In this document: positions 4,208-29,691 of the stretch, piece by piece
How positions within the stretch are numbered: the first letter of the stretch is position 1
Layout: the number at the start of each line of letters is the position of its first letter
Assembly (NCBI GenBank): GCA_948144175.1
Contig: CANXME010001443.1
Coordinates: 824,394-888,393 of the forward strand
Reading direction: 5' to 3'
Length of the DNA stretch: 64,000 nucleotides
Origin: Closterium sp. NIES-65
Taxonomy: Eukaryota > Streptophyta > Zygnematophyceae > Desmidiales > Closteriaceae
The notes under the pieces: generated by a model
What the model saw: only the letters and a program-made list of their open reading frames with translations
The model's database searches: none
What the model was told of the DNA's origin: nothing
Position numbers and translations under genes: made by a program

Positions 4208-7200
4208 TCAGCCTCTGAGTGGAGTTCTTGCGCCACCCCCCCTTTCAGCCCCTCCAGCTCCCCACCCTCCTCCCGACCCACCACCACCACTCCCAGCTCC
4301 CCATCCCCCTCCTCCCCCTCCCTCGCCACCCCAACCACCTGCATTCTGCCACCCACTCCCACCACCATCCCCAGATTGCCACACTTGCCCCCCTCCCTGC
4401 TCCCCCCCACCTCCCGCACTCCACGCCCCTCCTCCCCATCCAAGCTTCTCCCCACCTCCTCCCCCCACAGCCCCCCAACCACCCGACCCAGCCTGGTCCC
4501 ACCGACCACCCCTCCCCCCTGCCGGTATCGGGGGTGGCGGGGGCAATGCCAAACCACCACCACCACCACCACCAGAAGCTCCTCGGCGCGGCGTCTCTCT
4601 TTTCCCACCACCCCCGCCCGCACCCCCATCGCCACCCTCCACCGGATCATTAAAATGCGCCTGGAAATACTTCACCAGTCGGTCCGGCGTTGGGAACGTG
4701 TGCTTCCGGAACCGAAACCCTTCAGGGGAAACCGTGATATACTCGTGCACGGGGCGGCCGGAGACAGAAGCAGAGCGGATATAAGTGAGCATGAAGGCGC
4801 CAGGGTGGTCATGCGAGAGGGAGAGGTAGTAGGGGATGCGGGCAGGCTCGCGCTCCTTGTCGGTGCGCACTAGAGCGTCCATGTCGCCTTTGGATCCGAG
4901 GCGGAACTTGCGGTATGCCGCCATGTCCCGCATGCGCGCTGCCAAGGGCTCAATGTACCGTGCCATCACCTGGTGGAGAGGGGTGGGGAGCGGTGGAGTG
5001 GGGTGAAAAGGGGTGGTGAGGAGCGTCCATGTCGCCTTTGGAGCCGAGGCGGAACTTGCCGCCATGTCCCGCACCAAGCTGCTAGCGGCTCGATGTACCG
5101 CGCCATCACCTGGTGCGGAGGGGTGGAGCGAGGGGTTGAGAAGAGTGAGAAGGGGTGAAGAGAGAGGGGACGTATGAGAGGGAGAGGTGGTCAGGCAGGG
5201 AGGAGTAAGTGATGAGAAATAGAAACGATGCAAAGATGAGAGAGGGTGCAGCTGAGGAGAGGCAGGGGCATGAACGTCTCTTTACCCATCCAGCCTCCAC
5301 CCTTCACCGCGGCTCACCTCATCCAAGTCTTCGTAGCTCTCGTCCCCAATGGTGAGAGTGCGGCCGAGGCGCAGGAAGCTGGTGGCGCTGGTGCGGTCCT
5401 TGCCGCCCTCGTGCACATCCACGTGTGTGAAGGCCCCGCCCGGTAGCTTCATGGTGATGCTGAGATGCGTGGGGCCGCGGCTGCTGGGACGAATCACCAC
5501 ACTGCCCACGTCCTTGTCTGCCAGGACCTGTGGTGGTGGTGTGTGTTGGCATGTGTGAGATTGATACACAAGGGGAGGACCGAGCGCATGAACACCCAAT
5601 TCAGCAGCTTCATGGTGATGCTCAGATGCGTGGGGCCGCAACTGCCGGGCCGAATCACCACACTGCCCAGCAGCACACTGTCCGCCAGGACCTGAAGTGT
5701 TGACATGAGGAAAATGCACGGGGGAAAAGGCATACAGTGGGGGAAGAACGTGTGCGTGAGGGCAGTGTCCGTCTGGCAGCTTCATGGTGCCTGGCAGGGC
5801 TGAGGGTCGGCATTCTGACGAGGCTGGACCGAACCTGGCCGCTCCCCGGTTGGCTTGCCAACGAAGGCTGGTTCGGGCTGGGCTGGGATGGAGGGGGTGG
5901 GCCCTGGCCCAGGCTGTGCTCTTGAGTCGACTCAAAAGCATGATTAAAACCATGGCGCACCTTCTTAGCGCCTTCCAGCGACACATTGTGGAAGAGCGGG
6001 TAGGTGATCATGCGGGGGCGGAAGGCTGTTTTGCGCTTCTCCTCCTCCTTGCGCTTCCTCTCCTCCGTTGCCGCCTGCTCCTCCTGCTCCACGGCAGCGC
6101 GCTGGTAGTACGGGTCCCACTGCCGCATCTCCCTCCACTCGCTGCTCCTCAGATCGCTGCCCTTGCATGTTAGGATCACCTGCGCTTGTGGTAGGGGGCG
6201 GGTGGGAGGTGGAAGATGATGGGAGGTGGTAGTAATGGGAGGTGGGAGATGGGAGACGGGAGGAGTGGAATGGGGAGAGGGACAAATGCAACGCGAGGCT
6301 GGGGGGAAGCAGTTGATAAAGAGGCAAGTGGAAGAGAAAACCAAGCAGGGACGCGGCAGTCATGAGAAACCCCCAAGCCCACACACACATTGAACCCTTC
6401 CAACTCTCACACACATCCCCCCTCTTTCCTCACCCTTTTTCTTCCCCTCACACACACCTTAGCCTCCTCCGTTTTGACTTCCTTGATGCGGCAGGTCAGC
6501 GGCTGCCCCTCGCTCACCACATCCCTCAACTCCACATTCGAATTGTCACTGAAGTCCGGTTGGTCTTTGAGACACAAGAAACAATTGTGCGGCGCCCAGT
6601 AAATCCTCCCATCTCACCTTAGCTTCCTCTGTCTTCACTTCCTTGATGCGGCATGTGAGCGGCTGCCCCTCGCTCACCACATCCCTCAGCTCCACATTCG
6701 GGTCGTCACTGAAATCCCTCCGGTCCACCTCGCCCAGCACACCGCTCTCCAACGCACACAACACCTTGAACTTCAGCACGCGCTTCACCGTCGCAGTCAC
6801 CACCTTCCCCACCGCAAGACTCTCCTCCGTCTCCCCACTCAGCAGCCAGAACTGCTCGTCCGCATTCAGCGACTCAAACTGAACCCGGCACTCAGCAAAT
6901 CCGTGCATGAGCTCGCGGCGAATCAGCAGCAGCTTCTCCTTCAGCCCGCCCTGCCCCTTCCGAGCCAGCATCACCGCGTAGTCCTCGAAATCGAGCCTGC
7001 GGATCAGGTCCGGGTTGTCCCGAGCCTCGAGGACCACATCTATGCCGCGCTCCTCCACGCTGTGCGGCGTCATGCCGCGGTGGGCCTCGCAGTAGCCGTC
7101 TGTTGCCACTTTGAGCGCCAGACGGTAGTCTGCCGGGTGAATTCGTGAATCATCCAGCATGTCATCTTGCCCTCTCACCCGGATGAATGCTGCTGCGTTG

Positions 7201-10200
7201 ATGAACACGACCTGAGGAAGAGAGGGAAGCAACAGGAATCCAAGGGTGAACCAGTCATGCTGCGGTGTGCCTCGCAGTACCCATCAGTGGCCACCTTGAG
7301 CGCCGGGTGGATCCGGGAGTCATCCAACATGTCATCTTGCCCTCTCACTCTAATTAATGCTGCTGCATTGATGAACACAACCTGCGGGGAGGTTTGGGGG
7401 GGAGAAACCGGGGCAGAGAGGAGGGTGGGAGGAAGAAAAAATAGAAATGATCTCTGCCTTACTCTCGCACGTCGTCCTGCCCTCTCACTCAAATGAACGC
7501 CGCTGCGCTTAAAAACACAACCTGCAGACGAGAGGGGGGCAACAGGGTTCCAAGGCTGAATCAAGTCATGCCTCGGTGTGCCTCGCCGTAGCCATCAGTG
7601 GCCACCAGTGGCGCCGAGCGCCAGGCGGTAGTCTGCTGGGTGGATTCGTTTCGTGAATCATCTAGCATGCTGTCCTGGCCTCTCACTCGACTGAGACAAC
7701 CTGGAACGGAGGGAGAGAACAGGTGTCTAAGGAATGATTAGGGAAATCAGGGCGCACATCGTCTTGCTTTCTGACGCGGATGAATGCAGCAGACCACCTG
7801 CGGGAGGGACAGTTGGGGATACGTGACGAGTGAAAAGAGGGGGACAAGCGTGAGAAGGGGACAGCATGCACAGGAAAGGGGTGGGGGACGAGAACAGAGG
7901 GAAGGGGCAGTTGGGGGGCGGCGCACCAAGGCATGGGCAGGAGCACTTACAAGAATATCACAGGGCAAGGGCAGGGCGGGTGACGAACCTGGTCGAGCAG
8001 GAAGGGCGGGTCGATGAGGTCCTTGCGGCGCCGCACCACGCCCTCCCCCAGTATGCGCACCTGATGGGGGAGGTAATAAGGGCAAGGGGTGAGGTGAGGA
8101 AGAAAGTGCAGGATTTTGGAACCAGATTTCATGGAAGGGCGGACGGCGAAGGGAGGCGCTGTAGCATGCCCCTTCAAAGAGCACCCTTATCGGGTGGTGA
8201 GGAAAGTGTGGGGGAGAGTGGTGAAGGGGAGAGAGGCGAGGGGGGGATCAATAAGGAGAAGTACATCGAATCGAGCATGCGAGACAATGGGAGCAAGAGA
8301 GGAGTGGAGGAGAGACAAGGGGGAAAGGCCGGCAGGTGCGGTGAGGGAGAGCGAACGGGGCACAAGGCGCATCGGACACGGACGAGGGTGGGAGGCGAAG
8401 AGACTCATGACTCACTTTAAGCGTGGAGGCCTTTCTGGGTCCGAGGCCGCACACGAACTGCAGCGGTGCAAAGAGCCAATCCTGCGCCTCCTGTGCCGCA
8501 TAGTTCACATCCACTCCCACCTGGCAGCACAGTGAGAGGAAGGAACAGGTGAGGGTGCATGGGGGTGATTTATGCATGACTGTTCAGCAGACTCAACAGT
8601 TGCTTGCTTTTTGAGGCGCCTCAAAACTCAACAGTTGCTTGCGCCTGTGCATGTGCGTGTGCACACCCACCTGGCAGCACGTGACTGCGGCGGTCAAAGG
8701 GTGAACCTTAGCTGGTAACCTTACTAGCTGGTAACTGCACAGTTCCCACCTGGTTGGTGACGGTAACCATGACGCGTTCAAGCGCGTCGTACACGTCATC
8801 AGGCGGCAGCAGGTCCTGAGAGCGGTGGAACTTGGCAGATAGCACCTCCCTCGCCGGCCCAAACAGACACGCCGCCAGCGCCAGCCGGTTCTGCATATAG
8901 CGCCCGAGCCCTACCGTGCGCCGCACTATGCCTGAAAAAGGGTGGGGCGTGGGATGGAAAAGGGTGCATGCATGTACTGTCCTCCCGCCAGCGCCAGGCG
9001 GCTCTGCATGTAGCGCCCGAGTCCCACCGTGCGCCGCACTATGCCTGCTGGGGGGCCAAGGGGAAAGAGTGGGTGGAAGAGCGGTGTAACTTGGCAGATA
9101 GTTATGTTGACATCACTTTTGAGAATTCTCGAAATCACTTTTGAGAATTCTCGAAATCACTTTTGAGAATTCTCGAAATCACTTTTGAGAATTCTCGAAA
9201 TCACTTTTGAGAATTCTGAAAAATGAGTGGTGGAACTTGGCAGAGACCACCTTGGTGGCCCAAACAGGCAGGCTGCAAGAGCCAACCCATTCTGCATGTA
9301 AAGCTCGAGCCCTACTGTGCGCCGCACTATGCCTGGTGGGAGGGGGTGGGTGTTGGGGAGAGCGGGGACATGGTTGGGAAAAGGGTGTATGTATGTATGT
9401 ACCACCGTGTGTCGCACTATGCCTGGTGGGAATGGGAGGGGTGGGCTGGAGGGGGCTTGCTTGCCTCCCCACTCTTTCTCACACCACTCCATCTAACTCC
9501 TTCATCCTCGCCTCATCCCCTTCCTTCCAGGGCTCTCTCGTCTAAAAAGCTTTCCACATTGAGGGAATGCTCACAAGTGTTACGGCGTGACATATGCCTG
9601 CCTGAGCTGCACAGGGTGCGAGTGCTTGCCTGGCTGCGAGGGCAGGTGCTCCTGCGAGATGGCGGAATTCTCGTACAGCAGCGCGAGTGTCTCGTCTTGA
9701 AACACCACCTGGTGCATGAGGAAGAGAGGGTGCAGGAGGCCAGAGAGGGAGCGAGGAGGCTGTGAGCTTACATGCACAGATGCAAGGCAGCCGTGAGCTG
9801 ACAGTTTCCAGCACAGATGCAAGGCAGCCGGTCAATGAGTGCAGTGAGGGTGTGGTCGGCCAGCCAGGTGACTTTTGAGTCGACTCAAAAGTCACCTCGG
9901 GAGGCCAGAGAGGGAGCGAGGAGGCTGTAAGCTTGCATGCACAGATGCAGGGCAGCCGGTGAATGAGTGTAGTGAGGGTGTGGCCGGCCGGCCAGTGAGG
10001 GGTCGTCGGAGAGCGAGAACAAAATGAAGGCGAGGTGGGGGGTGGAGGCAGGCAGTGGGCAGTGGGCAGTGGGCAGTGGGCAGTGGGCAGTGGGCACGAC
10101 TTGGGCCACAGGAGGCAGAGGAGAGAGAAGGAGGATGCAGGTGCTGCCATGAGCTGACAGTTTTCAGAAGTTGTACAGTTAATCAACCACTTCAACAGGC

Positions 10201-13200
10201 ACGAGCACGGGGGAACACGTCACAGCAGCAAGGAGGCACTTACACGGACGTGAGATCATGCCATTTCAACAGCAGCACTCACACGGACGTTGTCGACATC
10301 AGATGTGAGGTCGCGAGGGAAGTGCTCCACGATCTTGAATATCACCTGGTGGGGTGGGCCGGGGCGCGAGGAGGAGGGGCGCAAGGGAGGAGGCATGCAA
10401 GTGAAGTGAGCGAGCCGTGAGAGGCAGGGCTGATGTTGTGAGGGCAGTGCTCCACGCTGTGAAAATCACCTGGTGGGCGGGAGGAGGGAGGAAAGGAGGG
10501 ATGCGATGGGAGGACGAGTGGAGCTGAATGTCTGAGCCAACAGGGAATGCCAGAGGGGAAGGGTTGAGGGAGAAGCAAGCGGCGCAGGAGGGCTAGAAAC
10601 TAAACAGAGTTACCGTGTCATTGAGAGTAGCAAGCTTTACTGTCTGTCTGTCCTGATCGTTGCACCCACATGCGCACATCCCCCACGCGCGCCCCAACCC
10701 CAACCCCCAGCCCAGCAGCCCACGCACCTCCCATCAGTGCATATCCCATTCGGCCCAATCACCACCACACTTGCCTCCCAGATCTCGTCTTTGAGCCTTT
10801 CGCAAGTGAGGTAGGCCCCGCCCACAAGTGAGGTAGGCCCCGCCCACAAGTGAGGTAGGCCCCGCCCACAAGTGAGGTTGGCCCCGCCCACAAGTGAGGT
10901 TGGCCCCGCCCACCACCACGACATGCGGCTTGTGCTCCTTCACAAACGCCATCAGCCGCCGCTCATCCTCCCACATACATGCCCACATATCCCAGCATGC
11001 ACATGTTATACAACCCACATTCTTTCACGCACCTCCCAGATCTCATCTTTCAGCCGTTCACACGCAAGGTTAGCCCCGCCCACCACCACGACATGCGGCT
11101 TGTGCTCCTTCACAAACGCCATCAGCCGCCGCTCATCCTCCCGCTTCTTCATCACCATCACCTGCTGCTCGCCCCCTCCCCCTCCCCCTCCCCCCGCCCC
11201 CCCCCGCTCCACCCATGCCCCCCCCTGCGCCCCCCCCCAGTGCTGCAGCGTCCCCTTTAGGCTGGCCGGTGCGAGCACAGAGGAAGCCGGTATGGAGAAA
11301 GTCCACCATCTCCCCTGCGGCGTTCAGCATGGCAAAGGTGGTCGCGGGGTTACCAGGCCCCCAGCAGCACGCCATCACTCGCAGCCACGGCTGCCCCCCT
11401 CCCCCGTGCTCCTCCCCTCCCCCATGCCTCCCGCCCCTCCCCCCGCCGCCCCGCATGCCCCCTCCCCCGCCCCCGCCCATCCCTCCGCCCCCACCCCCCC
11501 CCGCCCCCTTCGCCCGGACGTCAAAGGGGGCGACGGAGACGTGTTTCCAGAGGGCGAGAGCGCACTGCTCGGCTACGAATGCCTTGGCGCGGCCGGTGAG
11601 CAGCAGGCGCGTCTCCTTGTGCATCGTCGGCAGCAAGCGGGCGGCGATCGCCGCCCGGAGAATGGTGCGGCGCTGCTCGTTCCATAGCGAGGCGAAGTGC
11701 GAGACGCCGTCTGAGAGGTAGGCTGCTTCAAACTCCTGAGGGAACGGAGGAGAGCCGGGGTGCAGGAAGTGGGCAAATGCGGGTTGGCATGCGATGAGCG
11801 AGGCCACGTGGGAGATGCCATCCGAGAGGTAGGCCGCCTCCAACTCCTGCGAGGAGGTGGGCGAGGGGGCAGAGGGCGGAGAAGCAGGAAGGGGGAAGCA
11901 CCCGTGGGAAAGCGGGGAAATGGGGCAAAAGAAGGGGAATGAGATGAGCGAGGCGAAGTGGGGGTCGTGTGTGCAGCAACACCACCATCAACAGCAACCG
12001 CAGAAGCAGCAGCGACACCACCAGCAGGCGAGGAGGCGGCGGTGGGAGGGCGGCAACAGGAGGAGCAGGTGGAAGGGGGGGGGCGCGGGGGGTGGGCGAG
12101 CAGGGGAGCAGCCTAATGGATCTTGGTGCTTCTGACTCCGACAAAAGAGGGGGCATGAGATGAGCGAGGCGAAGTGGGAGGAGCAGTAGGAAAGGCAGGC
12201 CGGCTTCAAACTCCTGAAAGTACACACAGGGGAGGGGCGGGGTGGGGGGGATTAGGGATGGAGAAGAAACAAGGAAGTGCGGGTGATGAGGTTGGCATGA
12301 CAGTGAGACCAATTGATAGACGTCATCGGAGAAATACGCCAGCTAAATGAGCTCAGACCCTATGCTCTGAAACCTAGAGTTTCAACACTGCAAACCAAAC
12401 CAAGCCAAAAACGCAAATGGATAACATTTGAGTTGAAGGATAGCCATTAGCCCCTGCACCCATCTGCACTCAAATGGATAACATTTTCCTGTACCACAGT
12501 GGGAGGCAGCCCCAGCTCCACCTGCACGAGCCCCTGCGATTCAGCCTTGGCGATCAGCAGCCACTGGTCGTCGCGGAACTCGCCCACCGAATGTCCTCCA
12601 TCCCCCTACCCCTAACCACAAGCCTTGCCCTACACCCAAAATCCGGAACCCTTAGAAAACCGCTTGGATTGGATCGGCTCATACCTTGAACCCTCGAACA
12701 TTCAAGCCCTAAACCCCCCAACCCTGCACAGCACGGACCTGAATCACATTTTCCTGCACCACAGCGGGCGGCAGGCCCAGCTCCACCTGCACGAGCCCCT
12801 GCGCCTCCGCCTTGGCGATGAGCAGCCACTGGTCGTCTCTGAACTCGCCTACCGGCTTGGCTTGTCCACCATCCCCCTCTACCCAGCACGCAAGCCCTGC
12901 CCTACACCCCAAATCCCAAACCCTTAAAAAGATCGTTCAGATCGGCTTAAACCCTGAACCCTGGGACAATTAAGCTGTTAACCCCCTGCACAGCACCCAC
13001 CTGGATCACGTTCTCCTGCACGACAGCCGGCGGCAGGCCCAGCTCCACCTTCACGAGCCCCTGCGACTCCGCCTTGGCGATCAGCAGCCACTGGTCGTCG
13101 CGGAACTCGCCCACTGGCTTGTCCTTGAGGCGCTCTATGCCCGCAAAGCGGTGGAACGTGTCTATCACCTGCCATGCACGCACGCGCAGAGGGGGAGGAG

Positions 13201-16200
13201 GGCAAGAGGAACGCGTTAATCACGTGCAGCCACACGCACACGCACACAGGGGACGTGTGAGGTGTCTGCCTTAAAGGGAACTCGCCCACCGGCTTGTCCT
13301 TGAGCCGCTTGATGCCTGCGAAGCGGTGGAACGTGTCGATCACCTGCCATGCGCGCACGCAGCGGAGGAGGGCGGGAGAGAGGGTGCAGGAGAGGCGGAA
13401 AGAGTGCAAGAGGTTTACAGCGCATGGAGAACGGCGGGTGGGAAGGATGGGAGTAGGGGTTGAATTGCAAAAGGTTGATCAGGTAACGATGGGCGAGGAG
13501 CAAGGCAAGCAGAAGAGGAGGAAGTGCTGCGGGCAGAGTGCAGCAAGGAGATGTCGAACTGAGTACTGGAAGGATTTGATAGACAGGAGAATGATGGACA
13601 GAGGAACATGTTGTAATTACATATTTCATACAACATACATAAGCTAGAAGTGTAGCACATTTATAAATTTGGGGGTTGCTTAGTGTACCCTCCAACCACA
13701 TTTTGTGGTTGGTTGGGATTGGTCCTTAGCTCAACCAATCCCAACCAACACACATTTGTGGTTGCTTGGGTCACAAGCAAGCTCACCCATTGGCCAACTT
13801 ATTGGCCAATAGGGTAAGCTTCCCTCTCATCTCTCTCTTGCTCATTGTTTGTACTAAAGAGCCTCTTGGCTCATTATTCAATGCATCAATTCTCTCTCTT
13901 CTAACATGGTATCATGAGCTAATGGCTCACGCCTACCTCCCTCGGTCCTTAGGCCACCCTCTCCTCCCCGTTCCTCAGATCTAGCCCCACCCACAGAGCT
14001 GCCCTCCCTTCACGCGCCCTTTAGACGCTGTCCTCCCTCCCCGTGCGCCCCCTAAGGCGCTGCCCTCCAAGGCACGTCCAGATCTGCAACTCCAGCACCC
14101 AGATCTGCACTCCCCGCGCTCAGATCTGCAACTCGAGCGCCCAGATCTGCACTCCCCGCGCTCAGATCTGCAACTCCAGCGCCCAGATCTGCACTCCCTG
14201 CGACCAGATCTACTCCTCCCGCGCCTAGATCTGATCATTCCGTGCCCAGATCTGTATTCCGCGCCACCAGATCTCCTCCTCCCGCGCCCAGATCTGAACA
14301 TTTCGCACCCAGATCTGCACTCCGCGCGCCCAGATCTGCACTCCGCGCGCCCAGATCCGCCCTCCGCGCGCTCAGATCTGCCCTCCGCGCGACCAGATCT
14401 GCACTCCGCGCGACCAGATCTGCACTCCGCGCGACCAGATCTGCACTCCGCGCGACCAGATCTGCACTCCGCGCGACCAGATCTGCACTCCGCGCGACCA
14501 GATCTGCACTCCGCGCGACCAGATCTGCACTCCGCGCGACCACATCTGCACTTCGCGCGCCCAGATCTGCCCTCCGTCCGCCCAGATCTGCACTCCGCGC
14601 GACCAGATCTGCACTCCGCGCGACCAGATCTGCACTCCGCGCGACCAGATCTGCACTCCGCGCGACCAGATCTGCACTCCGCGCGACCAGATCTGCACTC
14701 CGCGCGACCAGATCTGCACTCCGCGCGACCAGATCTGCACTCCGCGCGACCAGATCTGCACTCCGCGCGACCAGATCTGCACCCCGCGCGACCAGATCTG
14801 CACCCCGCGCGACCAGATCTGCACTCCGCGCGACCAGATCTGCACTCCGCGCAACCAGATCTGCACTCCGCGCGACCAGATCTGCATCTCCCGCGCTGAA
14901 ATCTGACCATTTCGCGCCCATCTCTGCACGTCCCCGCTCGTTTGCCGCGGGCTGTCCCGCGTGCATTCGCCACGGGCTTCCCAGTCGCGCGGATCTGCCG
15001 CACGGCTGCCCTCTTCGTCCCCTCCCCCCCCCTCTCTCCCTTCCTCCTCCCATTGTACCCGCAGCAGCATCATCAGCGGCACCTCAACGGCACCACCAGC
15101 AGCACCCTCCCCCCTTTCCTCCCCCATAGCATCGCCCTCCTCCTCCTCCACCCAACCCACCCTCCGCTCCTCCCTTCCTCCTCCCATCCTACCTGCAGCA
15201 GCACCAGCAGCAGCACCAGCAGCGGCACCACCAGCAGCACCCTTCCCCCTTGCCTCCCCCATAGCATCGCCTAAGCATGGGCATTTGACCCGGACGGGTC
15301 GGGTAACCCGACCCGACCCGCCCGGGTCGGGTCGGGAAAACCCGGACGGGTCGGGTCGACCCGTGACCCGTCACTGTGATTTAGTGACGGGTTTTTGCGA
15401 CCCGCCGGGTCGGGTTGACCCGTCCCGTCCGGGTCGCGTACCCAGTCAAATGACAGGGTTACCCGACCCGTTTTCGGATTAGGGTAGGGGTTGAACATCG
15501 GTTGGTTTTTTAGGTTTTTTTTCCCTCGACATTCTGATCTAGTCGCTAGACTAGATCAAGGCTAGTACTTCTGCGCTGCAGCTAGGGAGCCTCATACAGT
15601 CTTCACTCTTCAATGTTAGCACTATTTAAACTGCATATTATCTTCAGGTTAGGGTTTGGCGCTCCGACCCGACCCTTCTGCTATGTAGCATATTTTGATC
15701 CGACCCGACCCGACCCGTGGTGTAACCGACCCGGTAACGGGTCACAAATACCCGTTCCCACGGGGCGGGTCGGGTCACCAAAACAGAGTCAAACCCGACC
15801 CGCTAACCCGACCCGACCCGACCCGTTAAGCTAACGGGTCGCCCTCAACGGGACGGGTCGGGCCGGGTCGGGTCAAATGCCCATGCTTAGCATCGCCCTC
15901 CTCCTCCACCGTCCTCCTCCTCCCATCCTACCTGCAGCAGCACCAGCAGCAGCACCTGCAGCGGCACCACCAGCAGCACCCTTCCCCCTTGCATCCCCCA
16001 TAGCATCGCCCTCCTCCTCCTCCACCTTCCCCACCCTCCGCTCCTCCCTTCCTCCTCCCATCCTACCCGCAGCAGCATCCGCAGCGGCACCAGCTGCAGA
16101 ACCAGCAGCGGCACGGGCAGCAGGGCCAGCAGCAGCATTGGCAACGGTGCCCTCGCACCATCCTCCTCCTGCCCTAGCCTCTACCCACCCTCATCTCTAT

Positions 16201-22200: not shown

Positions 22201-25200
22201 TCGAGGATACCATCAAGACATGCGTTACCCCAGGTCCTGGGGCCGATAATTGAGTAGTTAGCTCAAGGGATCCAGAGAGGTGCTTGGTTTCCAGAAATCC
22301 ACAGAGGGGCGTTACCCGGCCGCCAAGGCATTACCTGGCGGTCATAAACCCAGGGAGGGGCGTTACCTGGCGGCCGCGCGGGGTGGGGTTGGTGGAGACG
22401 ATGGCGCGCTTGTTGAAGATCTCCCTCACGTGCTCGCGCACCTTGGGCTCTATGCTTATCTCCACCTCCGCCTGCCATTGGCACACACGCAACAAGGGAG
22501 GCACACACGCAACAAGGGAGGCACACACACACAGCATTCGGGTCACTGTATAACATCATCACACCATCCCCCTCACGTGCTCCCGCACCTTGGGCTCCAT
22601 GCTTATCTCCACCTCCGCCTGCCATGCGCACGCAAACATTGGAGTCACTTTTGAGCATCATCTCACCATCTCCCTCAGGTGCTCGAGCACCCTGGCCTGG
22701 CCTGGCCTGGCTGGCTCGATGCTTATCTCCACCTCCGCACACTCCCACTGTCCCACATCGTGTCAGCCAAGCACGGATGTACAAGCTGTGTGACACACAT
22801 CACAGATTCACAGCCACACAAGGGGTGACCACAAACCACAGCGTAGAATGTAAAGCAAAACACCCTCCATTCCACCTTCCACACTGCAGGATCAACGATG
22901 GCTGAACATGCACTCCGCCGTCGTGTACCACAAGGGCAACAGGATGCATGCGGCCTGGCAGCAATATACAGCATGCGGCCTGGCAGCAATATACAGCATG
23001 CAAGAGCGTGAGGATACCCTTTGCTTCCTGCGCTTCAAATCCTGCAACCTTTTGCAAAGTGTACGAGGCAAGGTCACCAGAAGACCAGCCAACCCGCACG
23101 CACCATGTGGCGGGCGCCTCTGAGCACGAGAGCAGGCGAGGGGAATTCAGCACAGATGTACTCCGTTGCCACCTCCTCCGGTGATAGCGCCGTGTCCTCC
23201 ACCTCGTGTTGCTGCCATTACACATGCACACACACACGCATATACAGCCACATAGACACGCACACATGCACACGACGGGTATTGGATGTGGAGTGGTGAG
23301 AGAAGGAGGTGGGGAGGCGGGTTGAAGAAACCTGACTGTGCCGGCCCATGAGGCCGTCAGGAGGCGGCAATCTGAGGAGAGGATCCCAATACCCCTCACA
23401 CCTCTCACACCCCACCCATCCCACCATCCTCCCACGCACCTTGTACATGGAGATGAGATTCTCGCCCAGTTGGAACGCCGACAGCCCAATGCGCTTCACC
23501 ACACCCTTCAACCCAGCCCGCCGGCACACCGAGTACATGGACCGCTTCCGAGGCCGCCTCTGCTGCACCCCTGCCCCTCCCCGCCCGCCCTCCTCCGCCA
23601 CAGCCTCCTCCGGCGGAAACTGCAGGTTGAACTTGGCGTCCACGTCCTCTACGGCGGGCTCCGAGAGCGCACAGTCGAGCGCGTGGAGCACCCCTTGCAT
23701 GGCGAGCTGCCGCTCTGCTTCTTCATCCTCGTCCACTCGCGGCCGCTCGTAGGCGGATCGCAGTGAGCGCTTGCGGCGCTGCAGGAGCAGCCAGCGGCGA
23801 TCCCACTGCTGGATGGCCCACAGAGCCTGGTTGGGAAGAATGTAAACGGAGAGTGGGCGCAGGGAGGGGATAGCGAGGGAGGGTAAGAAATGGGGGTGTT
23901 TACGCATGCAGCCCCAGCCCACGGCTATCCCATTGCTGGATGATTTACAGGGCCTGCGTTGGAGGAGGGAGAAAGGGGGGTGGTGGTGGAGGGGTCGGTT
24001 GTGTGGGGAGAAAAAGGGAGGGGCCAATGGGGAAGAAGGAAGGAAGGAAGGAAGGAAGGAAGGAAGGAAGGAAGGAAGGAAGGAAGGAAGGAAGGAAGGA
24101 AGGAAGGAAGGAAGGAAGGAAGGAAGGAAGGAAGGAGGGAGGAGGCTGATAGGGAGGGTGGAATGGGGGGTTTGTGGATGCGAAGGAATAGAGAGGTAGG
24201 GAGGGAGATCGAGCGAGCATGCAAAGGGAGGAGTCCTGAAGAAGTGCAATGCAGGTGGGCGGCCTGCTACTCCAGTCCAGATCATATGCAGGTGGGCCTG
24301 CTACTCCAGATCACATGTTACAGAACAGACTAACATGCAGATATCCTGCAAGTGCAATCCAGGGGTCAGGTCAGTACCTGGAAGGGCTGCAGCTGCGGCT
24401 CCCCGTCAAGCTTGTCTTGCTCCACGAGGGGGGGGGCAGTGCAGTGCAGTGCAGGTGGGGCTGCATGCCCAGGTTATAGATGTCAAAACTACCTAAATAC
24501 CCGGCAAATCCAAGGGACCACACCTGGAAGGGCTGCAGCTGCGGCTCCCCGTCGAGCTTGTCTTGCTCCACGAGAGCCGGGCAGATGGCCTTCTTGTGTA
24601 TCGCTATGTACGGCACCTGGTGGGAGGGGAGGGGAGGGGGCATGAGAGGAAGGATGTGGCACATGAGATTTCAAGTCGACTCAGCAAGTCTCCACGAGAG
24701 CCGGGCACATGGCCTTCTTGTGCATCGCTATTTACGGCACCTGGTGGGAGGGAGGCATAGGGAGGGTGGGAGTATGGGAGGAGGGCCAGAAAGGGAGGGG
24801 AGGGCCAGGAGGGAGGGGCATGAGGGGAGAGCCAAGGATCCATGGGTGCACTAAAAGCGAGTACAGATGGGATGCGAAGAAGGGGGAAGCAAAGGAGTGG
24901 AGGAGCGGATTGGGGAAACGGGAAACCAGGATGGACAACAACAGTACAGACTGATGCGTCGAATGAGTCGCATCACTTGAGCCGATGCAATGCAGCCTCA
25001 CGAAGTCCGTCACATCCGGACCAGAGCCACTCAGCACAGTGACACTGCACCTCGCATTCGCCCACCCTGCCCCCTCCCCACACAGCACCTCGCACCCATC
25101 CACTCTCTTCCCTCCCCTCTCCTCCCCCCTCCACCGCACCTCCACTTTTGCATCGTGCAGCTCTTCAAGCACAGCCGCGATCTGCTCGATGGCACCGTCC

Positions 25201-28200
25201 CGCGCCGCCACGGCCTCTCTCCGGCATTTCTCCACGTCCTCCCGTGCGCACGTGGCGGCGCGCCTCTCAGCGTCAGCGACGTACGAGAACTCCCCCCGCC
25301 GCAGGTGGTCGGGGGCTAAGGAGCCAAACACGCGCTCGTAGATCCACTCGGCCTCGGGTAGATGGTCCTCGTTCTCAGGGATTACACCCACCACCTCCTC
25401 CAACAGCTGGGGCAGGTGAAGTGGACAAGGGGAGTTGGAGAAGGAGGGGGAGCGGGGAGAGGGGGAAGGGGAGAGAGGGGGAGGGAGGGGGAGTGTGGGG
25501 GAGCGGGAGACGGGGGGGGAAGGAAGCAGAAGGGGGGAGGGAGGAGAAGGGGAGGTGCAGCAATGAGAGAGGGGAACTGATGGGTGCGTGGCAGGTGGCC
25601 GGGGTAGATGGTCCCCAGACGGGCCAGGGCGCCAGACGGGTAGATCCACTCGGCCTCGGGTAGATGGTCCTCGCTCTCTGGGATCAGCTTCGGGGTAGGT
25701 GAGGTGGGCAGGGGGAGTTAAGGGGTGGGGGAGGGGGAGATGCGGTGATGAGCGAGCGAGCACAACGGATGCTGTGCAAGAGGGGGGAGTGCAGTGCAAG
25801 TGGAGTGGAGGGGGGTGGGGGAGGAGAAAAGGGGGGGTGCGGCGGGGGGGTGGAGGAGCCCCTGCCATGCCCGACACCAGAGGAAGAGGAAGAGGAGGAA
25901 GAGGAGCCCATGCCATGCCCTGCCATGCCCTGCCATGCCCTGCCATGCCCGATACCAGCTCTCAATTCTCCACAGAGGAAGAGAACTACATGCCGTGCAA
26001 GAGGCGCGACTACGTTTGCCAAAAGGAAAGCCGGAAGGGGGGGAGAGGCAGGGTGGGGGGGAAAGGGGAAGGGGGAGAGGGAGTCAAGGGTAAGAGCCCA
26101 GGCCCCAGCCCCCATAACTCAATCTCAACTCTCACGTCCCCCCACCCACCTGCAGCCTCTCAGGAACGTCTCTGGCTCGAATGGGTTCATCCCGCCCGCT
26201 CAGTCATATACTTGGCCTCCAACAAGCTCGGCTCATACTGCCTTGCTTCAACAGCACCATCACTCACCCTCACTTCCAAGCACCCACCTGCAGCCTCTCA
26301 GGAACGTCCCTCGCCCACCCACCTGCAGCCTCTCGGGCACATCTCGGGCTTGAATGGCCTCATCCCGATCCGTCATATACTTGGCCTCCAGCAGGCTCGG
26401 CTCATACTGCTCGACACCACCCTCACTCCCTCACTCACCTTCACTCCTCACCACCCACCTGCAGCCTCTCAGGAACATCTCGGGCTCGAATGGCCTCATC
26501 CCGCTCCGTCATGTATTTAGCTTCCAGCAGGCTCGGCTCATACTGCTTCGACAGCGCCGACGCCCCGCCCGCGCCCTCCCGCCCATACTCCTCCCCACCC
26601 TCCGCCCCCATCCCATCCTCATAATAGTACCCCCCCGCGCCCCCCTCCCCTCCCTCCCTCCTCTGCCTCTCCAGCTCCACGCGCCGCCGCTCCAGCAGAT
26701 CCGCCACGTCACCGAAAATATCCTGCGCCTCGAGAAGCGCCTCAGAGGTGACACCTGGCATGCGCGTGCCCTTTTTCTTCTTCTTGCGGCGGCGCCGGCC
26801 GTGCTCGTCCGTGTCGTCTACACCCCCTTCCACGATGAAGTCTGCCATCTCGTCCTCTTCCTCCTCGTCCTCCTCCCCGTCCTCCTCCTCCAACTCCTCC
26901 TCCTCGCCCCTGCCTTCCCTCTCCTGGAAATCTTCAGGCACGTCTGGGGAGACAAGGAGAACAGGAGGAAATGGAGGAGCGACCGAGGGGTGGAGCGAGA
27001 GAAAAGAGATGGGATGGGGGGTGGGGGGGGGGGGGGGGGAGAAGGGGGAGGAGGTGGGAAGGATAGTGGGGAGGAGGAAGAAGAGGCAAAGATGAGGAGT
27101 GAACAGGAATTTATAGTGGGAAACAGCAGCGTGGAGATTTTTTTTTTTTTTTTTTTTTTTTTGAGGCGCCTCAACAGGGGGAAGAGGCAAAAATGAGGAG
27201 TGCACGGTATTCATAGTGAAAAAACAGCAGGAAGGGGAGGGATTGTAGGGAGCCAAAAGACAGGGATGGGGACGTGAGGAGTCAAGAGAGCTAACGCTCT
27301 TCAAACTGTGACGGCACTTGCTACTCAAAACACATGCTGCTTACCCCCCTCACCCCCCAACCCTTCACAACCTCATCCCAGAACAAAGAGTCACTCTCAT
27401 CCCAGAAACCTCTCACCCTGATTGTCCATATCCCTCTCAGCCTGATTGCCCATATCCCTCTCACCCTCATTGTCCATATCCCTCTCACCCTCATTGTCCA
27501 TATCCCTCTCACCCTCATTGTCCATATCCCTCTCACCCTCGTCCCCAAAAATCTCCCTCTCCACGCATTGCTGGGGGCGCATACCGCCCTCCTCGTCCTC
27601 CTCATCGTCCATCAGCAACCCCTCATTCACATCATATGCAAGACACATACCTACCCACCCCCATCCCTGGACGTTCCCCTCACTCACCCTCATCGCCAAA
27701 GATCTCCCTTTCCACGCGCTGCTGCGCGCGCATGCCGCCCTCCTCGTCCTCCTCATCGTCCATCAGCAACCCGTCCTCGTCCCCCCCCATGTGCCTCGCC
27801 TTTTTCAGCCGCCGAAACTTCTTATCCTTCTGCCAAAGCGCACACCACATAACATAACATACCAGCCACGTAAGGCAAACACAGGCCAAGACAAGGCACA
27901 GGGCAGTCACACGCCAAAGGACATGGGGACGGATAAAAGACCAAATGAGCAAGGGAAAGCAGCCCCCCTCCTCCTCGCACCCCCTCCCCTTCCCATGTGT
28001 CGCGAGGCCGTGCGTGCCTTCATCATCAGCCTCCACACCTTCTTGCCCTTCCGCCCCCATGGGAAGGGAAAGCAGAACTTGTTGCCCGATCACGACAGTC
28101 ACAGATCAAAGGCATGTGTGTGCTGTGCAGTGTGCATGCATGGGGAGGAGACAAGCCAGATAAGCGGGGAAAAAACAGCACTGTTCCTGACGTGACGTGA

Positions 28201-29691
28201 CACCCATGAGCTCCGCCGTCATCTGAAGCAGCTGTTGACATTACACACATACACGGCCACACACACACACTAATGACGCGAGGCGAGGCTCAGATTGTCA
28301 CTGCAGCTACCCTATAAGATGCCGTTTCACAGCAGGACAAACAACATATGGCCGCGGTTTCTTAAGCTTGCCCCAATGGACGCACCTTGGCGGGGCGATG
28401 AAAGCCCCCCACACCGCTCTCCTGCAGCAGCGCATAGTCGTCCTCATCCAACTCGTCCTCCTCCTCCTCCCTGCGACACAGCACACGCATGGGGATTGGG
28501 TGATGCCGAATGGGAGGGAGGTTGAGCTTTGAGGCGCCTCAAAGCACACCGCTCTCCTGCAGCAGCGCATAGTGGTCCTCGTCCAACTCGTCCTCCTCCT
28601 CCTCCCTGCTCGCCGGGCCATGGAACATGGGGGTATTGGGGGATGGCGGATGGGGAGCGGGCATGGGGATAGGGGGAGGGGGCAAGGGGCATGGGATGGG
28701 AGGGGAGAGAGGCCAGGCCAGAGTGGGCGGACGTGGCAAGGAGACCAGCAGCACCACACTCAACCGCAGAGCACCTTGTGCTGGCACCCCTTGTATTGTA
28801 TCCCCCTCCTCACCTTTTCCGGCGCTTCTTCTTCTTCTTCTCCCTGCGCTCCTCGTCACTCCCCGGCCCCTCCTCGCCCCCCCCTTCCTCCTCCTCGCCT
28901 TCACCGCCCTCCTCCTCCTCCTCATCACCGTCCACCATCCATCCATCCTTCTCATACTCGTCCTGCCCCTCTTCTGCTCCCCTCACCCGAAAACAAGACG
29001 CAGACACACGCACGGCGATTACGAAAGAGTCACAACGAGCGATAAGAAAAGAAGGACTCGCGCACACGCGATCAGAGGGACTGGCAGGGCAGCAGGCAAC
29101 ATGGCTGCCAGTCGGCGCGATCAGAGGGAATGGCAGGCAACATGGCTGCCAGTCGGCGCGATCAGAGGGAATGGCAGGCAACATGGCTGCCAATCCGCGC
29201 AGCCGACGCACCACCCCGCTGATAGCCAATCACGCTGGGCCTCCTCACCACCCCTATGTTGCCGTGCTTTAAATTCGCCCAATCGAATACAAGTCACTAC
29301 TCTAGATAGCCCAACCAAATATTAATATCTTTTGGCCTACCTCCCTCCTCCCCTCTTTTATCATTCCTCTCTCCCTCCTTCCCTTCCCTCGCCCCATGTC
29401 CGCGCCCTAACTTCCTCCTCTCGCCATCCTCCCGATTCTCGACCAACCTTCCTCCGCGCGCGTCACCTACTTTCGCGCTCTACCCTCCTCTGCGCGCCAA
29501 CCTTCCTCCGCGCGCCTACCCTCCTCTGCGCAACTACCTTCCTCCGCGCGCCTACCTTCCTTCGCCCGCCTACCTTCCTCCGCGCAACCCTACCTTCCTC
29601 TTCATCGTCGTCCTCCCCGTTCACATCGTCGCCCTCCTCTTCCTCCTCCTCCTCCTCGCGCTCCACCTCATCTGCCGGGGCCCCATCGAGA
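4208..29691 (-). CDS. SPT6: Transcription elongation factor SPT6 (21 exons placed)
   Basis: SPT6 is a nuclear histone chaperone and elongation factor that travels with RNA polymerase II. Exons placed: ~29691-29594, 28973-28814, 28470-28386, 27829-27688, 26943-26459, 25406-25140, 24616-24524, 23826-23440, 23211-23104, 22471-22367, 13168-13001, 11735-11033, 10345-10283, 9708-9630, 8931-8750, 8520-8416, 8060-7989, 7211-6618, 6179-5961, 5527-5318 and 4969-4208, about 1,695 residues. Order: acidic N-terminus with Lys-rich clusters, the EDEMADFIV region, a YqgF-like part (VMACCWGPG) in exon 12, helix-hairpin-helix (GLGPRKA) in exon 16, S1 domain in exon 18, tandem SH2 (VIRPSSRGPTHL; HPGAFMLTYIRS) in exons 20-21, and a Gly-rich tail with about six WG/GW motifs. 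Phases agree throughout except inside exon 12, where a C-run stretch (11165-11240) shifts the frame by one base. The start codon is unresolved. The exon 14 donor is GC. Element A lies in the intron between 22367 and 13168. Confidence 0.95.
5022..5120 (-). repeat. Copy of the 5' edge of SPT6 exon 21
   Basis: The stretch repeats about 4875-4980 (acceptor plus MARYIEPLAARMRDMA and the start of the next segment) with small deletions. It sits in the upstream intron next to the real acceptor at 4970. Confidence 0.85.
5605..5702 (-). repeat. Copy of the 5' edge of SPT6 exon 20
   Basis: This repeats about 5445-5535: the acceptor and the part coding for VLADKDVGSVVIRPSSRGPTH. The copy reads VLADSVLLGSVVIRPGSCGP on the gene strand, so it is still partly open. 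A further short fragment lies near 5775-5790. Confidence 0.85.
5922..5935. repeat. Palindrome TTGAGTCGACTCAA
   Basis: A perfect 14-bp palindrome in the intron downstream of SPT6 exon 19. It belongs to a set of similar palindromes at duplication junctions in this gene. No matching duplication was recognised around this one. Confidence 0.7.
6455..6553 (-). repeat. Copy of the 3' edge and donor region of SPT6 exon 18
   Basis: The copy matches about 6612-6715, the end of exon 18 (ELRDVVSEGQPLTCRIKEVK), with a few substitutions. It lies downstream in the intron. Confidence 0.85.
7255..7806 (-). repeat. Four copies of the 5' edge of SPT6 exon 18
   Basis: The source is about 7060-7215 (acceptor then VVFINAAAFIRVRGQDDMLD). 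Copies lie near 7255-7388, 7466-7528, 7563-7705 and 7748-7806. The first is the best preserved and still reads VVFINAAALIRVRGQDDMLD behind its own acceptor. The others are shorter and more diverged. The copies run head to tail along the upstream intron. Confidence 0.9.
8591..8642. repeat. 18-bp palindrome between 17-bp direct repeats
   Basis: The palindrome TTTTGAGGCGCCTCAAAA (8609-8626) lies between two exact copies of ACTCAACAGTTGCTTGC (8591-8607 and 8626-8642), in the intron between SPT6 exons 15 and 16. Confidence 0.9.
8983..9052 (-). repeat. First copy of the 5' edge of SPT6 exon 15
   Basis: This repeats about 8870-8940 (acceptor then GIVRRTVGLGRYMQNRLAL). On the gene strand the copy is open and reads GIVRRTVGLGRYMQSRLALA. 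Further copies lie at 9240-9345 and 9400-9432. Confidence 0.9.
9112..9219. repeat. 22-bp array with palindromic core TTTTGAGAATTCTC
   Basis: About five tandem units, each containing CTTTTGAGAATTCTCGAAAT, lie between two copies of the exon 15 edge. The unit resembles the TTTTGAG-NNNN-CTCAAAA palindromes elsewhere in the gene, with EcoRI-like core GAATTC. Confidence 0.9.
9240..9432 (-). repeat. Second and third copies of the SPT6 exon 15 5' edge
   Basis: A longer copy at 9240-9345 still reads GIVRRTVGLELYMQNGLALA on the gene strand, and a short remnant of the acceptor side lies at 9400-9432. Both are diverged from the source at 8870-8940. Confidence 0.85.
9736..9993. repeat. Intronic tandem duplication of about 100 bp with a palindrome at the joint
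   Basis: The stretch at about 9736-9865 recurs at 9899-9993 with small differences. Between them lies a perfect 32-bp palindrome (9866-9897) whose left half is AGGTGACTTTTGAGTC. Confidence 0.9.
10046..10096. repeat. Short TGGGCAG array
   Basis: About seven units of the 7-bp motif TGGGCAG in the SPT6 intron between exons 13 and 14. Confidence 0.8.
10770..10976 (-). repeat. Copy of the 3' edge of SPT6 exon 12 with an internal 22-bp array
   Basis: The stretch repeats about 11033-11140 (DERRLMAFVKEHKPHVVVVG to LKDEIWE). It is split by about five units of 22 bp (10803-10914) derived from the part coding for GGANL. The donor here reads GGGAG followed by GCAAGT, a GC-type donor, while the preferred exon end at 11033 has a GT donor. 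Confidence 0.85.
11790..12222 (-). repeat. Copies of the 5' edge of SPT6 exon 12
   Basis: Parts of the exon start (EFEAAYLSDGVSHFASL; source about 11675-11740) recur near 11790-11855, where the copy reads EAAYLSDGISHVASL, and more weakly near 12155-12222. CAGCAG-rich sequence fills the space between. Confidence 0.8.
12485..12860 (-). repeat. Two copies of the 3' edge of SPT6 exon 11
   Basis: Copies at about 12485-12595 and 12737-12860 match 12990-13120 (end of exon 11). On the gene strand they stay open: the nearer reads DDQWLLIAKAEAQGLVQVEL and continues to the exon end. They are separated by sequence that is also partly repeated (the CCCTAAACCC-like stretches). Confidence 0.9.
13272..13355 (-). 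repeat. Copy of the 5' edge of SPT6 exon 11
   Basis: The stretch repeats about 13100-13180: acceptor followed by VIDTFHRFAGIKRLKDKPVG, one residue different from the real exon over that stretch. The frame is open and the acceptor is kept. Confidence 0.9.
13609..13906 (+). repeat. 5' LTR of copia A
   Basis: 298 bp, TGTTG...CTAACA, nearly identical to 21752-22049. Confidence 0.95.
14080..14890 (+). repeat. 21-bp array in the leader of copia A
   Basis: About 38 units, each close to CCAGATCTGCACTCCGCGCG plus one base. Because 21 is a multiple of three, several frames on both strands stay open across the array; these are not evidence of genes. It lies between the primer site and gag. Confidence 0.9.
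15272..15889. mobile_element. Non-autonomous hAT-type MITE inside copia A
   Basis: The 618-bp element has terminal inverted repeats starting TAAGCATGGGCATTTGACCC and an exact 8-bp target duplication GCATCGCC (15264-15271 and 15890-15897), the length made by hAT transposases. Subterminal regions are dense in GGGTCGGGT and its complement. No transposase frame is present. It is inserted in the leader of copia A and so is younger than that insertion's ancestor copy. Confidence 0.9.
21752..22049 (+). repeat. 3' LTR of copia A
   Basis: 298 bp, preceded by the purine tract TTGGGGGGTTG and followed by the target duplication GAACA. Confidence 0.95.
22296..22376 (-). repeat. Copies of the donor edge of SPT6 exon 10
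   Basis: The motif around the exon 10 end (CGCCAG followed by GTAACGCC on the gene strand) occurs three times within about 80 bp. The exon end used here is 22367. Confidence 0.7.
22570..22740 (-). repeat. Two copies of the 5' edge of SPT6 exon 10
   Basis: Copies near 22570-22630 and 22675-22740 repeat the source at 22420-22480 (AEVEISIEPKVREHVRE). The nearer one keeps the acceptor; the farther has a CCTGGCCTGG slippage run inside it. A half-palindrome CACTTTTGAG lies between them. Confidence 0.85.
24036..24137. repeat. GGAA microsatellite
   Basis: About 25 units of GGAA in the SPT6 intron between exons 7 and 8; pyrimidine-rich on the gene strand. Confidence 0.98.
24370..24430 (-). repeat. 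Copy of the 3' edge of SPT6 exon 7
   Basis: Repeats about 24518-24575, the exon end (LVEQDKLDGEPQLQPFQ) with its donor side. Confidence 0.85.
24685..24755 (-). repeat. Copy of the 5' edge of SPT6 exon 7
   Basis: Repeats about 24560-24630 (acceptor then VPYIAIHKKAICPALVE). Its far edge meets an imperfect palindrome around TCAAGTCGACTCAG (24671-24684). Confidence 0.85.
25605..25690 (-). repeat. Copies of the 5' part of SPT6 exon 6
   Basis: The segment coding for PENEDHLPEAEWIY (source about 25335-25390) recurs twice in diverged form in the upstream intron. Confidence 0.8.
26143..26418 (-). repeat. Three copies of the 3' edge of SPT6 exon 5
   Basis: The exon end (source 26455-26555: EPSLLEAKYMTERDEAIRAR to DVPERLQ then GT) recurs near 26143-26255, 26278-26312 and 26320-26418. 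Each keeps the CTGCAG followed by GTGGGT donor. The middle copy is a short donor-side fragment. Confidence 0.9.
27079..27229. repeat. Intronic duplication of about 48 bp with poly-T and a palindrome at the joint
   Basis: Sequence at 27079-27128 recurs at 27181-27229. Between them lie a run of about 25 T and the palindrome TTGAGGCGCCTCAA (27161-27174). Confidence 0.85.
27415..27545 (-). repeat. 24-bp array grown from the SPT6 exon 4 donor edge
   Basis: Five or so units, each containing GAGGGTGAGAGGGATATGGA on the gene strand. The unit begins with the exon end GAGG and a GTGAGA donor. Confidence 0.85.
27545..27640 (-). repeat. Copy of the 3' half of SPT6 exon 4
   Basis: Repeats about 27690-27780 of the real exon. 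On the gene strand it is open and reads LLMDDEEDEEGGMRPQQCVE where the real exon has ARHMGG upstream and RAQQRVE. It runs directly into the 24-bp donor array. Confidence 0.9.
28526..28620 (-). repeat. Copy of the 5' edge of SPT6 exon 3 ending in a palindrome
   Basis: About 28546-28605 repeats 28410-28470 with its acceptor (EEEEDELDEDHYALLQESGV). The copy is cut exactly at the perfect 20-bp palindrome GCTTTGAGGCGCCTCAAAGC (28526-28545). Confidence 0.9.
29066..29198. repeat. 37-bp unit, three copies
   Basis: Three units containing GCAACATGGCTGCCAGTCGG in the intron between SPT6 exons 1 and 2. Confidence 0.85.
29445..29600 (-). repeat. 18-bp array grown from the SPT6 exon 1 donor edge
   Basis: Eight or so units close to GAGGAAGGTAGGCGCGCG on the gene strand. 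The real exon ends GAGGAAG followed by GTAGGG at 29594, so each unit repeats the exon end and donor. Confidence 0.85.

Follow-up and report, generated by a model that had tools for sequence, protein, structure and literature searches.

The SPT6 locus and the copies of its exon edges

We analyzed a 64,000-nucleotide stretch of the genome of Closterium sp. NIES-65 (Desmidiales), called the window below, which is the final 64 kb of contig C1440 in an assembly of 874 Mb in 2,400 contigs. The window holds a chloroplast-type EF-G gene, aligned to the E. coli EF-G, and an SPT6 gene on the minus strand, together with copia-type retrotransposons recognized by eye from their open frames and abundant tandem arrays (125 rows in the output of Tandem Repeats Finder, TRF). 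Our subject is the SPT6 gene, whose introns contain partial copies of the edges of the neighboring exons, and the same pattern in other genes of this genome.

Three minus-strand frames of the SPT6 gene encode domains that match solved SPT6 chains, and one frame of the 5' part has no match to solved chains. Guided by the sequence and these matches, we placed 20 exons manually, with exon 1 unplaced. The exon ends carry GT/AG splice sites with one GC donor; the apparent GC donor is that of exon 14 (window 9621-9630), which ends in CCAG before an intron beginning gcaagc. A copia-type element at 13609-22049 lies within the intron between exons 10 and 11; its terminal repeats (13609-13906 and 21752-22049) are 98% identical.

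Searching each exon against its two neighboring introns, we found exon-edge copies at 14 of the 20 placed exons (3, 4, 5, 6, 7, 8, 10, 11, 12, 13, 15, 18, 20 and 21), in 28 matched stretches or one to five per exon. The two stretches at exon 20 and two of those at exon 12 may each be a single copy, and a weak match of exon 2 was excluded here as low-complexity, yet is counted among the 68 exons of the panel below. The first-pass annotation of this DNA had put the number of such exons at about 14 and had called 12 of them clear; all 12 have copies, and exons 8 and 13 are additional. The gene and its copies are as follows, all on the minus strand, with percentages giving identity to the live exon.

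4208..28974, SPT6 coding exons 2-21 as placed from solved SPT6 chain matches and splice sites; exon 2 may start a base earlier or later
28545..28605, exon 3 (live 28470-28386): first 61 bp copied, acceptor AG retained, 97%
28526..28545 (no strand), perfect palindrome GCTTTGAGGCGCCTCAAAGC after the copy, at the exon 3 seam
27537..27624, exon 4 (live 27829-27688): 3' 88 bp and donor GT copied, 89%
26150..26456, exon 5 (live 26943-26459): 3' part and donor in two copies, 80% each; shifts of 136, 169 and 300 bp
25640..25684, exon 6 (live 25406-25140): bases 25-69 copied, 96% over 45 bp; weaker similarity toward the acceptor side by eye
24690..24740, exon 7 (live 24616-24524): first 51 bp copied upstream, then a degenerate palindrome, 94%
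24378..24435, exon 7: last 58 bp and donor copied downstream, 93%
23907..23953, exon 8 (live 23826-23440): first 47 bp copied, the copy having an in-frame stop, 74%
22566..22738, exon 10 (live 22471-22367): first 53 bp in two copies, 69% and 94%, the less similar being the farther
13277..13343, exon 11 (live 13168-13001): first 67 bp copied upstream, 90%
12475..12859, exon 11: 3' part in two downstream copies with a period of ~262 bp, 90% and 87%
11797..12213, exon 12 (live 11735-11033): first 50 bp in two upstream copies, 80% and 82%
10775..10972, exon 12: 3' part in two downstream stretches, probably one copy split by a 22-bp minisatellite, donor GT changed to GC, 93% and 82%
10431..10469, exon 13 (live 10345-10283): first 40 bp copied, 80%
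8985..9332, exon 15 (live 8931-8750): 5' part in two upstream copies with a palindrome array between them, 79% and 92%
9117..9222 (no strand), array of five TTTTGAGAATTCTC palindromes directly after the farther exon 15 copy
7254..7790, exon 18 (live 7211-6618): 5' part in four upstream copies, 74-77%
6458..6557, exon 18: last 100 bp and donor copied downstream, 89%
5589..5789, exon 20 (live 5527-5318): 5' part copied in two stretches, 74% and 79%
5021..5109, exon 21 (live 4969-4208): first 97 bp copied, 82%

Self-alignment of the 17.5 kb of the SPT6 locus outside the copia insertion, made in one orientation, gave 34 direct pairs and none in ten local shuffles per piece. These copies could in principle be an artefact of the assembly, and the genome is rich in near-identical duplicate contigs; nothing else was found in support of this. 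The SPT6 locus is present on three separately assembled contigs (window 1-40669 against C2152 and C329), whose alignments are 99.3-99.6% identical and span the copies, which makes local mis-assembly unlikely; the alignments of both other contigs also pass through the copia element. Copies recur in separate carB contigs as well, and most copies differ from their source by several percent to 30%. We therefore rejected the artefact, which we regard as practically ruled out, and the copies described in the first-pass annotation are confirmed. The differences of at least 4 bp among the SPT6 contigs are confined to short-unit arrays or low-complexity runs, so these sequences change fastest.

Exon-edge copies in a panel of genes

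We collected a panel of 12 sequence pieces covering 11 loci, namely SPT6 (two pieces), EF-G, gltB (on C1894 and on C1653), purL, carB, ileS, valS and three ppc loci. The loci were found by searching the genome with E. coli K-12 proteins as neutral probes (six of 14 stretches were used); every probe with an answered search is reported, and one of several valS-like places and three of several ppc-like places were taken. The panel is a small, conserved and non-random sample. Its exons were mapped with a purpose-written spliced aligner, so that apart from the hand-placed SPT6 exons they are inferred from distant protein matches and splice-site scoring, and the terminal exons of gltB, purL, ppc and valS are partly uncertain. 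Breakpoints were read from alignments. Exons shorter than 30 bp were dropped from most counts (15 bp in one). For the self-alignments we masked TRF arrays whose units were 45 bp or shorter, and we sought shifts of at least 50 bp. Pairs more than 100 bp outside the gene spans were dropped from some counts (112 pairs in total, 110 within spans), and copies that stop short of the junction were omitted from the flank and seam tests. The valS gene is absent from the codon-position, identity, splice-dinucleotide and flank counts and present in the pair, cluster, seam and exon-side counts.

The panel contains 112 direct local pairs against 0.8 in shuffles, forming 75 clusters with 151 copies. At least one copy is present at 68 of the 145 exons and at 89 of the 290 exon sides, so the expectation that the pattern extends to other genes is borne out. 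Among the 287 exon sides long enough to search, 89 match their own intron directly, while two match a locally shuffled intron, two match another gene's intron (no longer than the own one), and four match their own intron in inverted orientation. This supports the earlier claim that all copies are direct repeats beside their source, and it is the adjacent, same-orientation placement expected of a tandem duplication at staggered breaks. We conclude that exon-edge duplication is a property of this genome and is not peculiar to SPT6. No pair was found in the two ppc loci on C2304, and few in gltB on C1653 (3) and in ppc on C1914 (2), indicating that genes differ in their copy load. The retrotransposon-rich parts of the window hold only three pairs in ~42 kb, which says little, as the elements are probably young. 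In the EF-G gene of the window, the copies are as follows, again on the minus strand.

2453..2946, around the exon at 2702-2544: upstream copies at 2946-2894 and 2822-2770, downstream copy at 2483-2453
758..821, copy of the 5' 65 bp of the exon starting at 692, 88%

Size, position and order of the copies

The smallest shift per cluster has a median of 146 bp with an interquartile range of 126-167 bp; 66 of the 75 clusters lie at 100-210 bp and two below 100 bp. The exon junction is reached by 112 of the 151 copies (59 of 79 upstream copies at exon base 1-2, and 53 of 72 downstream copies at the last two bases). Thus not every copy extends to the junction in the alignment, in all panel genes, and a good part of the aligned pairs extends past it into the intron.

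The copies are ordered by age. The copy nearer to the exon is the more similar one in 74 of 97 comparisons (23 opposite, p 1e-7), with the comparisons within a family not being independent, and the nearest copy is the most similar in 22 of the 34 families with two or more copies. At exon 10 of ileS the series of copies runs through 77, 90, 95 and 99% identity. Hence the same live edge has been duplicated repeatedly, with the older copies shifting outward.

Differences between haplotypes

Most of the searched loci are present as two or three similar contigs, with ppc being the exception. The two ileS haplotypes, A (C309) and B (C2348), are near-identical over the first 10 kb and strongly diverged beyond, where the exons mostly align between haplotypes and the introns hardly do. 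The switch at ~10 kb resembles a recombination point between old haplotypes or homoeologues. Elsewhere the haplotypes are close, with 99.7% identity in carB and the values given above in SPT6.

The number of copies differs between the ileS haplotypes. At exon no. 14 (13174-13307), A carries a single extra copy of the 5' edge, and B carries two. Before the exon at 12613-12850, B has an array of 244-bp units that are 98.5% identical, where A has one 70-bp repeat pair with a shift of 179. At one site B equals A plus 108 bp, consisting of a 40-bp double palindrome and a 68-bp flank duplication, with A as the empty site. The duplication activity is therefore recent, since copy number is polymorphic between these haplotypes.

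A family of palindromes

The introns contain perfect palindromes of the form CTTTTGAG-NNNN-CTCAAAAG, and at the places listed here the centers are mostly self-complementary. The family pattern CTTTTGAGNNNNCTCAAAAG has 15,729 occurrences in the 874 Mb and its reversed control has none; duplicate contigs are counted, so the distinct loci are fewer. The AATT-centered form has 875 genomic occurrences, and the centers at the listed places are mostly TCGA, GCGC, AATT or ACGT. The outer flanks vary between copies, yet they are symmetric within several of them. A looser form of the palindrome has 11 matches in the window (five in one array) against 1.3 expected. The palindromes sit inside longer introns, and one is in the doubtful terminal exon of valS. 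The following were read from the window sequence (no strand), the last two lines also from its self-alignment.

5920-5937, 8609-8626, 9117-9222, 9866-9897, 27159-27176 and 28526-28545, CTTTTGAGNNNNCTCAAAAG palindromes
9866..9897, intron-only duplication with arms 9995-9911 and 9867-9785 and a 32-bp perfect palindrome between them
27138..27176, intron-only duplication with arms 27230-27181 and 27129-27080, and between them a palindrome (27159-27176) followed by A25 on the gene strand

Palindromes are found at 8 of the 112 exon-copy seams against 1.25 expected (p 5e-5). We then examined 36 palindromes or palindrome clusters from the 12 gene pieces, part of ileS haplotype B and 10 of 15 palindrome loci cut out of the genome. 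A direct repeat directly abuts the palindrome in 21 of the 36 cases, compared with 155 of 719 control positions (p 3.7e-6), the control rate being high because the DNA is rich in repeats; at a stricter score of 30 the numbers are 12 of 36 and 127 of 719 (p 0.02). When the palindrome flanks were compared without requiring abutment, random places scored equally high. The abutting repeats span 16 to ~160 bp, and the 12 of the 21 with at least 93% identity span only 16-65 bp. The palindromes and the duplications are linked, though most seams have no palindrome.

These observations raise the possibility that the palindrome is a mobile element with variable, often long target-site duplications, that the exon-edge copies are these target-site duplications, and that the insert has mostly been lost or has decayed. 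The abundance of the pattern, the abutting repeats, the single palindrome followed by A25 and the pair of sites in ileS, the one place where the filled site was seen to equal the empty one plus an insert and a duplicated target, speak for such an element, and a stagger of 126 bp has a precedent in the R9 retrotransposon (available text of PMC6895275). However, 104 of the 112 seams have no palindrome, including that of the newest copy of ileS exon 10 (99% exon identity, flank identical over 45 bp); the clean abutting repeats are also short, and control positions score as well. We tried this element as a general cause and kept it as a rival only, because of the seams without palindromes and because the clean repeats are shorter than the exon-edge units; we consider it unlikely.

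Decay of the copies

The copies differ from the live exons by 7.2, 7.1 and 20.7% at the first, second and third codon positions, and from each other by 11.2, 10.8 and 26.5%; the third-position ratio drops to 1.7 when restricted to G/C outside CpG. The splice dinucleotides are largely retained, with AG in 45 of 50 acceptor copies, and GT in 28 and GC in two of 32 donor copies. This bias and this retention led us to suspect that the copies are functional, as alternative exons or decoy splice sites under selection. By our own calculation, neutral decay at 7% per site predicts that AG would be retained in ~43 of the 50 acceptor copies, so the retention fits neutral decay. The copies contain seven in-frame stops in 1,574 codons, where our own estimate is ~12 if they were neutral, and 8 of the 33 gap events in their exon parts are multiples of three, which shows no preference.

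We dropped the suspicion after comparing the ileS haplotypes, with poorly aligned columns omitted, and after inspecting the copy ends. Between the haplotypes the live exons differ at 8 of 1,742 first and second positions against 41 of 872 third positions, whereas the copies differ at 14 of 1,426 against 5 of 706 and thus have no codon bias (the differences are few and the test is weak). No paired splice sites were seen around the copies when their ends were inspected by eye: the acceptor copies have no consistent donor at their inner end and the donor copies no consistent acceptor at their start. The spliced alignments pick one path by construction. Judging from their sequence, the copies appear to be dead, and a function under selection is highly improbable.

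In the first seven pieces the exon-derived parts of the copies are 88.2% identical to their source and the intron-derived parts 75.0%, as expected if the live exon is held constant. The flanks are more puzzling, since their similarity has z < 2 in 30 of the 50 copies with less than 6% divergence at first and second positions. The third-position excess and the unrecognizable flanks might be due to a diverged allele as the source, to fast-changing live edges, or to a rapid turnover of the pyrimidine tract. The first of these would be an exchange between diverged alleles, in which a piece with homology confined to the exon is copied from the other allele during repair and attached next to the break. 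It would yield similar exon parts, unrelated intron flanks and third-position differences, and the flank and codon-position results fit, as does ileS, where beyond ~10 kb exons align and introns hardly do, and where third-position differences prevail between the live exons of the whole gene. But the haplotypes elsewhere are near-identical, and the nearest B copy at the ileS exon 13174-13307 is by eye mostly B-like and not A-like in its exon part, so we consider such an exchange very unlikely.

Targeting or tolerance at the exon borders

Rotating the repeats against the exon map in the first seven pieces, we observed 48 of 70 pairs between an exon and an intron against 24.7 expected, confirming the claim that exon junctions are over-represented. 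Pairs between exons are absent against 8.0 expected, and complex pairs number 6 against 16.0. Pairs within introns number 16 against 21.3, a deficit that is not significant (p 0.11). The missing exon-exon pairs are plain selection.

We simulated a process with no targeting by placing single random duplications on the real genes (without valS), removing the harmful ones, letting the neutral parts decay and applying the same detector. Junction-spanning events made up 288 of the 521 detected (55%). In an earlier and cruder simulation with shuffled introns the share was 51%, the intron-only events being detected more easily there (237 of 278, against 233 of 487 on real introns). In the observed data 68 of the 75 clusters touch an exon (p 2.6e-11), as do 65 of the 81 first-order pairs (p 2.3e-6), with multi-copy clusters being likelier to do so. 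The excess over this null is real. The first-pass annotation had offered targeting of splice junctions or mere tolerance of such copies; something beyond tolerance is favored, and targeting is not proved. The decay of the introns was probably set too slow in the simulation, because the 45-bp flanks are unrecognizable in 30 of the 50 least diverged copies and the diverged ileS introns hardly align, so that intron-only events are probably under-counted.

The position of the units relative to the junction was compared with simulated random placement. The exonic share of the unit has a mean of 0.50 and a standard deviation (sd) of 0.15 in 48 first-order edge pairs, against a simulated sd of 0.26. 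Without valS, the share at acceptors is 0.45 (sd 0.12, n=29) and the simulated one 0.51 (sd 0.26), with a Kolmogorov-Smirnov (KS) p of 0.019, or 0.014 when at least 45 bp of intron is required. At donors it is 0.56 (sd 0.17, n=19) against 0.53 (sd 0.25), which is not significant (KS p 0.31).

Breaks or template switches might thus be fixed relative to the exon borders, with the units centered on the junctions. The excess of exon-touching clusters and first-order pairs, the narrow exonic share at acceptors and a median unit of nucleosome size all agree with such targeting, for which exon nucleosomes, Okazaki-fragment ends at nucleosome dyads, and transcription or splicing factors are candidate rulers. 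Yet the donor test is not significant and intron-intron pairs are not significantly reduced, an intron turnover faster than simulated would conceal intron-only events, and splicing requires some intron in the unit, which by itself excludes high exonic shares at acceptors. We see targeting of splice junctions as possible, though rather doubtful.

A proposed origin and its nearest known systems

We propose that small tandem duplications arise recurrently by the repair of staggered breaks, sometimes with a palindromic insert, and are filtered by selection on the exons; our confidence in this account is about even. Two nicks or breaks would occur on opposite strands, 100-200 bases apart, and fill-in and rejoining would double the stretch between them, giving units of mostly 100-206 bp. 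A palindrome of 20-40 bp might sometimes be captured or inserted at the seam, which would mimic an insertion with a long target-site duplication. Events within an exon would be removed by selection. Those straddling a junction would survive, as the full exon keeps one intact junction and the extra half-exon would be spliced out with the intron. Repeated doubling of the live edge would displace the older copy from the exon, where it would decay.

Added sequence at the seam is a feature of duplications at staggered breaks, and plant work by Vaughn and Bennetzen in 2014 and by Schiml in 2016 is reported to have dealt with small tandem duplications from paired nicks or breaks. Such duplications double directly and adjacently what lies between two breaks, as seen in this genome. 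They are an established outcome of repair, through fill-in by Pol alpha-primase/CST and end joining, with insertions below 100 bp and tested overhangs of 43-50 bases in the available text of PMC8355091. Here the units center near 146 bp, are tied to exon borders, are repeated at the same edges and are very frequent. The nearest single precedent for a border-spanning unit is, going by the accessible part of PMC4974935, the potato RdRp gene, in which a tandem duplication spans an intron-exon border and carries the splicing signals along; in our case the extra half-exon appears to remain in the old intron and decay. The suggestion that no genome with this pattern had been described is not quite supported: no description of the exon-edge copies or of the palindrome was found in the literature searched, which does not prove their absence, but the two kinds of duplication just named have been described.

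Other systems are more distant. The unit in the Rogers model is an exon-internal AGGT, which is not the duplicated thing here. R9 has, like the palindromes here, a direct repeat far longer than usual around an insert (available text of PMC6895275), but our insert is a 20-40-bp palindrome without coding capacity, the repeat length varies and most exon-edge duplications are free of any insert. Introner elements share with the palindromes the nature of an abundant, short, dispersed sequence tied to introns (PMC9860276, as far as available), but the palindromes lie within longer introns and seemingly do not form introns themselves.

Several of our results weigh against the staggered-break account. 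The 66 clusters at 100-210 bp lie above the size given for this class of repair (below 100 bp in the available text of PMC8355091). The clusters at exon junctions exceed what a tolerance-only model yields, and the great majority of seams have no palindrome. The clean repeats that abut palindromes do not reach the length of the exon-edge units, so that two different processes may be at work. The third-position excess goes beyond what neutral copies facing a constrained exon would fully explain, and a plain tandem copy should share its flank, which most of the least diverged copies do not recognizably do. A bolder version, in which a single break-and-insert machinery marked by CTTTTGAGNNNNCTCAAAAG cuts exon-intron borders with staggers of ~100-200 bases and, by acting repeatedly on the same borders, is the main route of intron growth in this lineage, the intron edges being an age-ordered record of duplication, strikes us as quite unlikely.

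Other features and genome setting

Two further features lie in the window. Open frames of leucine-rich repeat character, internally repetitive and recognized by eye, occupy 31172-33775 on the minus strand, and long minisatellites with 19-bp-based units lie at 49481-51222, 52467-53590 and 59459-60844. The Closterium peracerosum-strigosum-littorale complex has mean introns of 485-554 bp and resembles this genome in its intron length of several hundred bases and in its duplicated contigs (available text of PMC10407611). The main text of that paper, so far as available, contains no word beginning 'palindrom' and treats tandem repeats only at the gene level.

Significance

The copies go beyond what the first-pass annotation had described in that they are ordered by age, polymorphic between haplotypes and linked to a palindromic repeat. 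Intron growth and duplications that collect at exon borders are hard to study, as the events are old and rare. With nearly half of the 145 sampled exons carrying ordered and haplotype-variable copies, their rate, size, breakpoints and tolerance become directly measurable in this genome. The palindromes linked to the copies, which occur more than 15,000 times, give a point of entry to the mechanism. Gene predictors may take the copies for exons in such genomes, and the copies themselves are natural tests of how the spliceosome chooses among similar splice sites.

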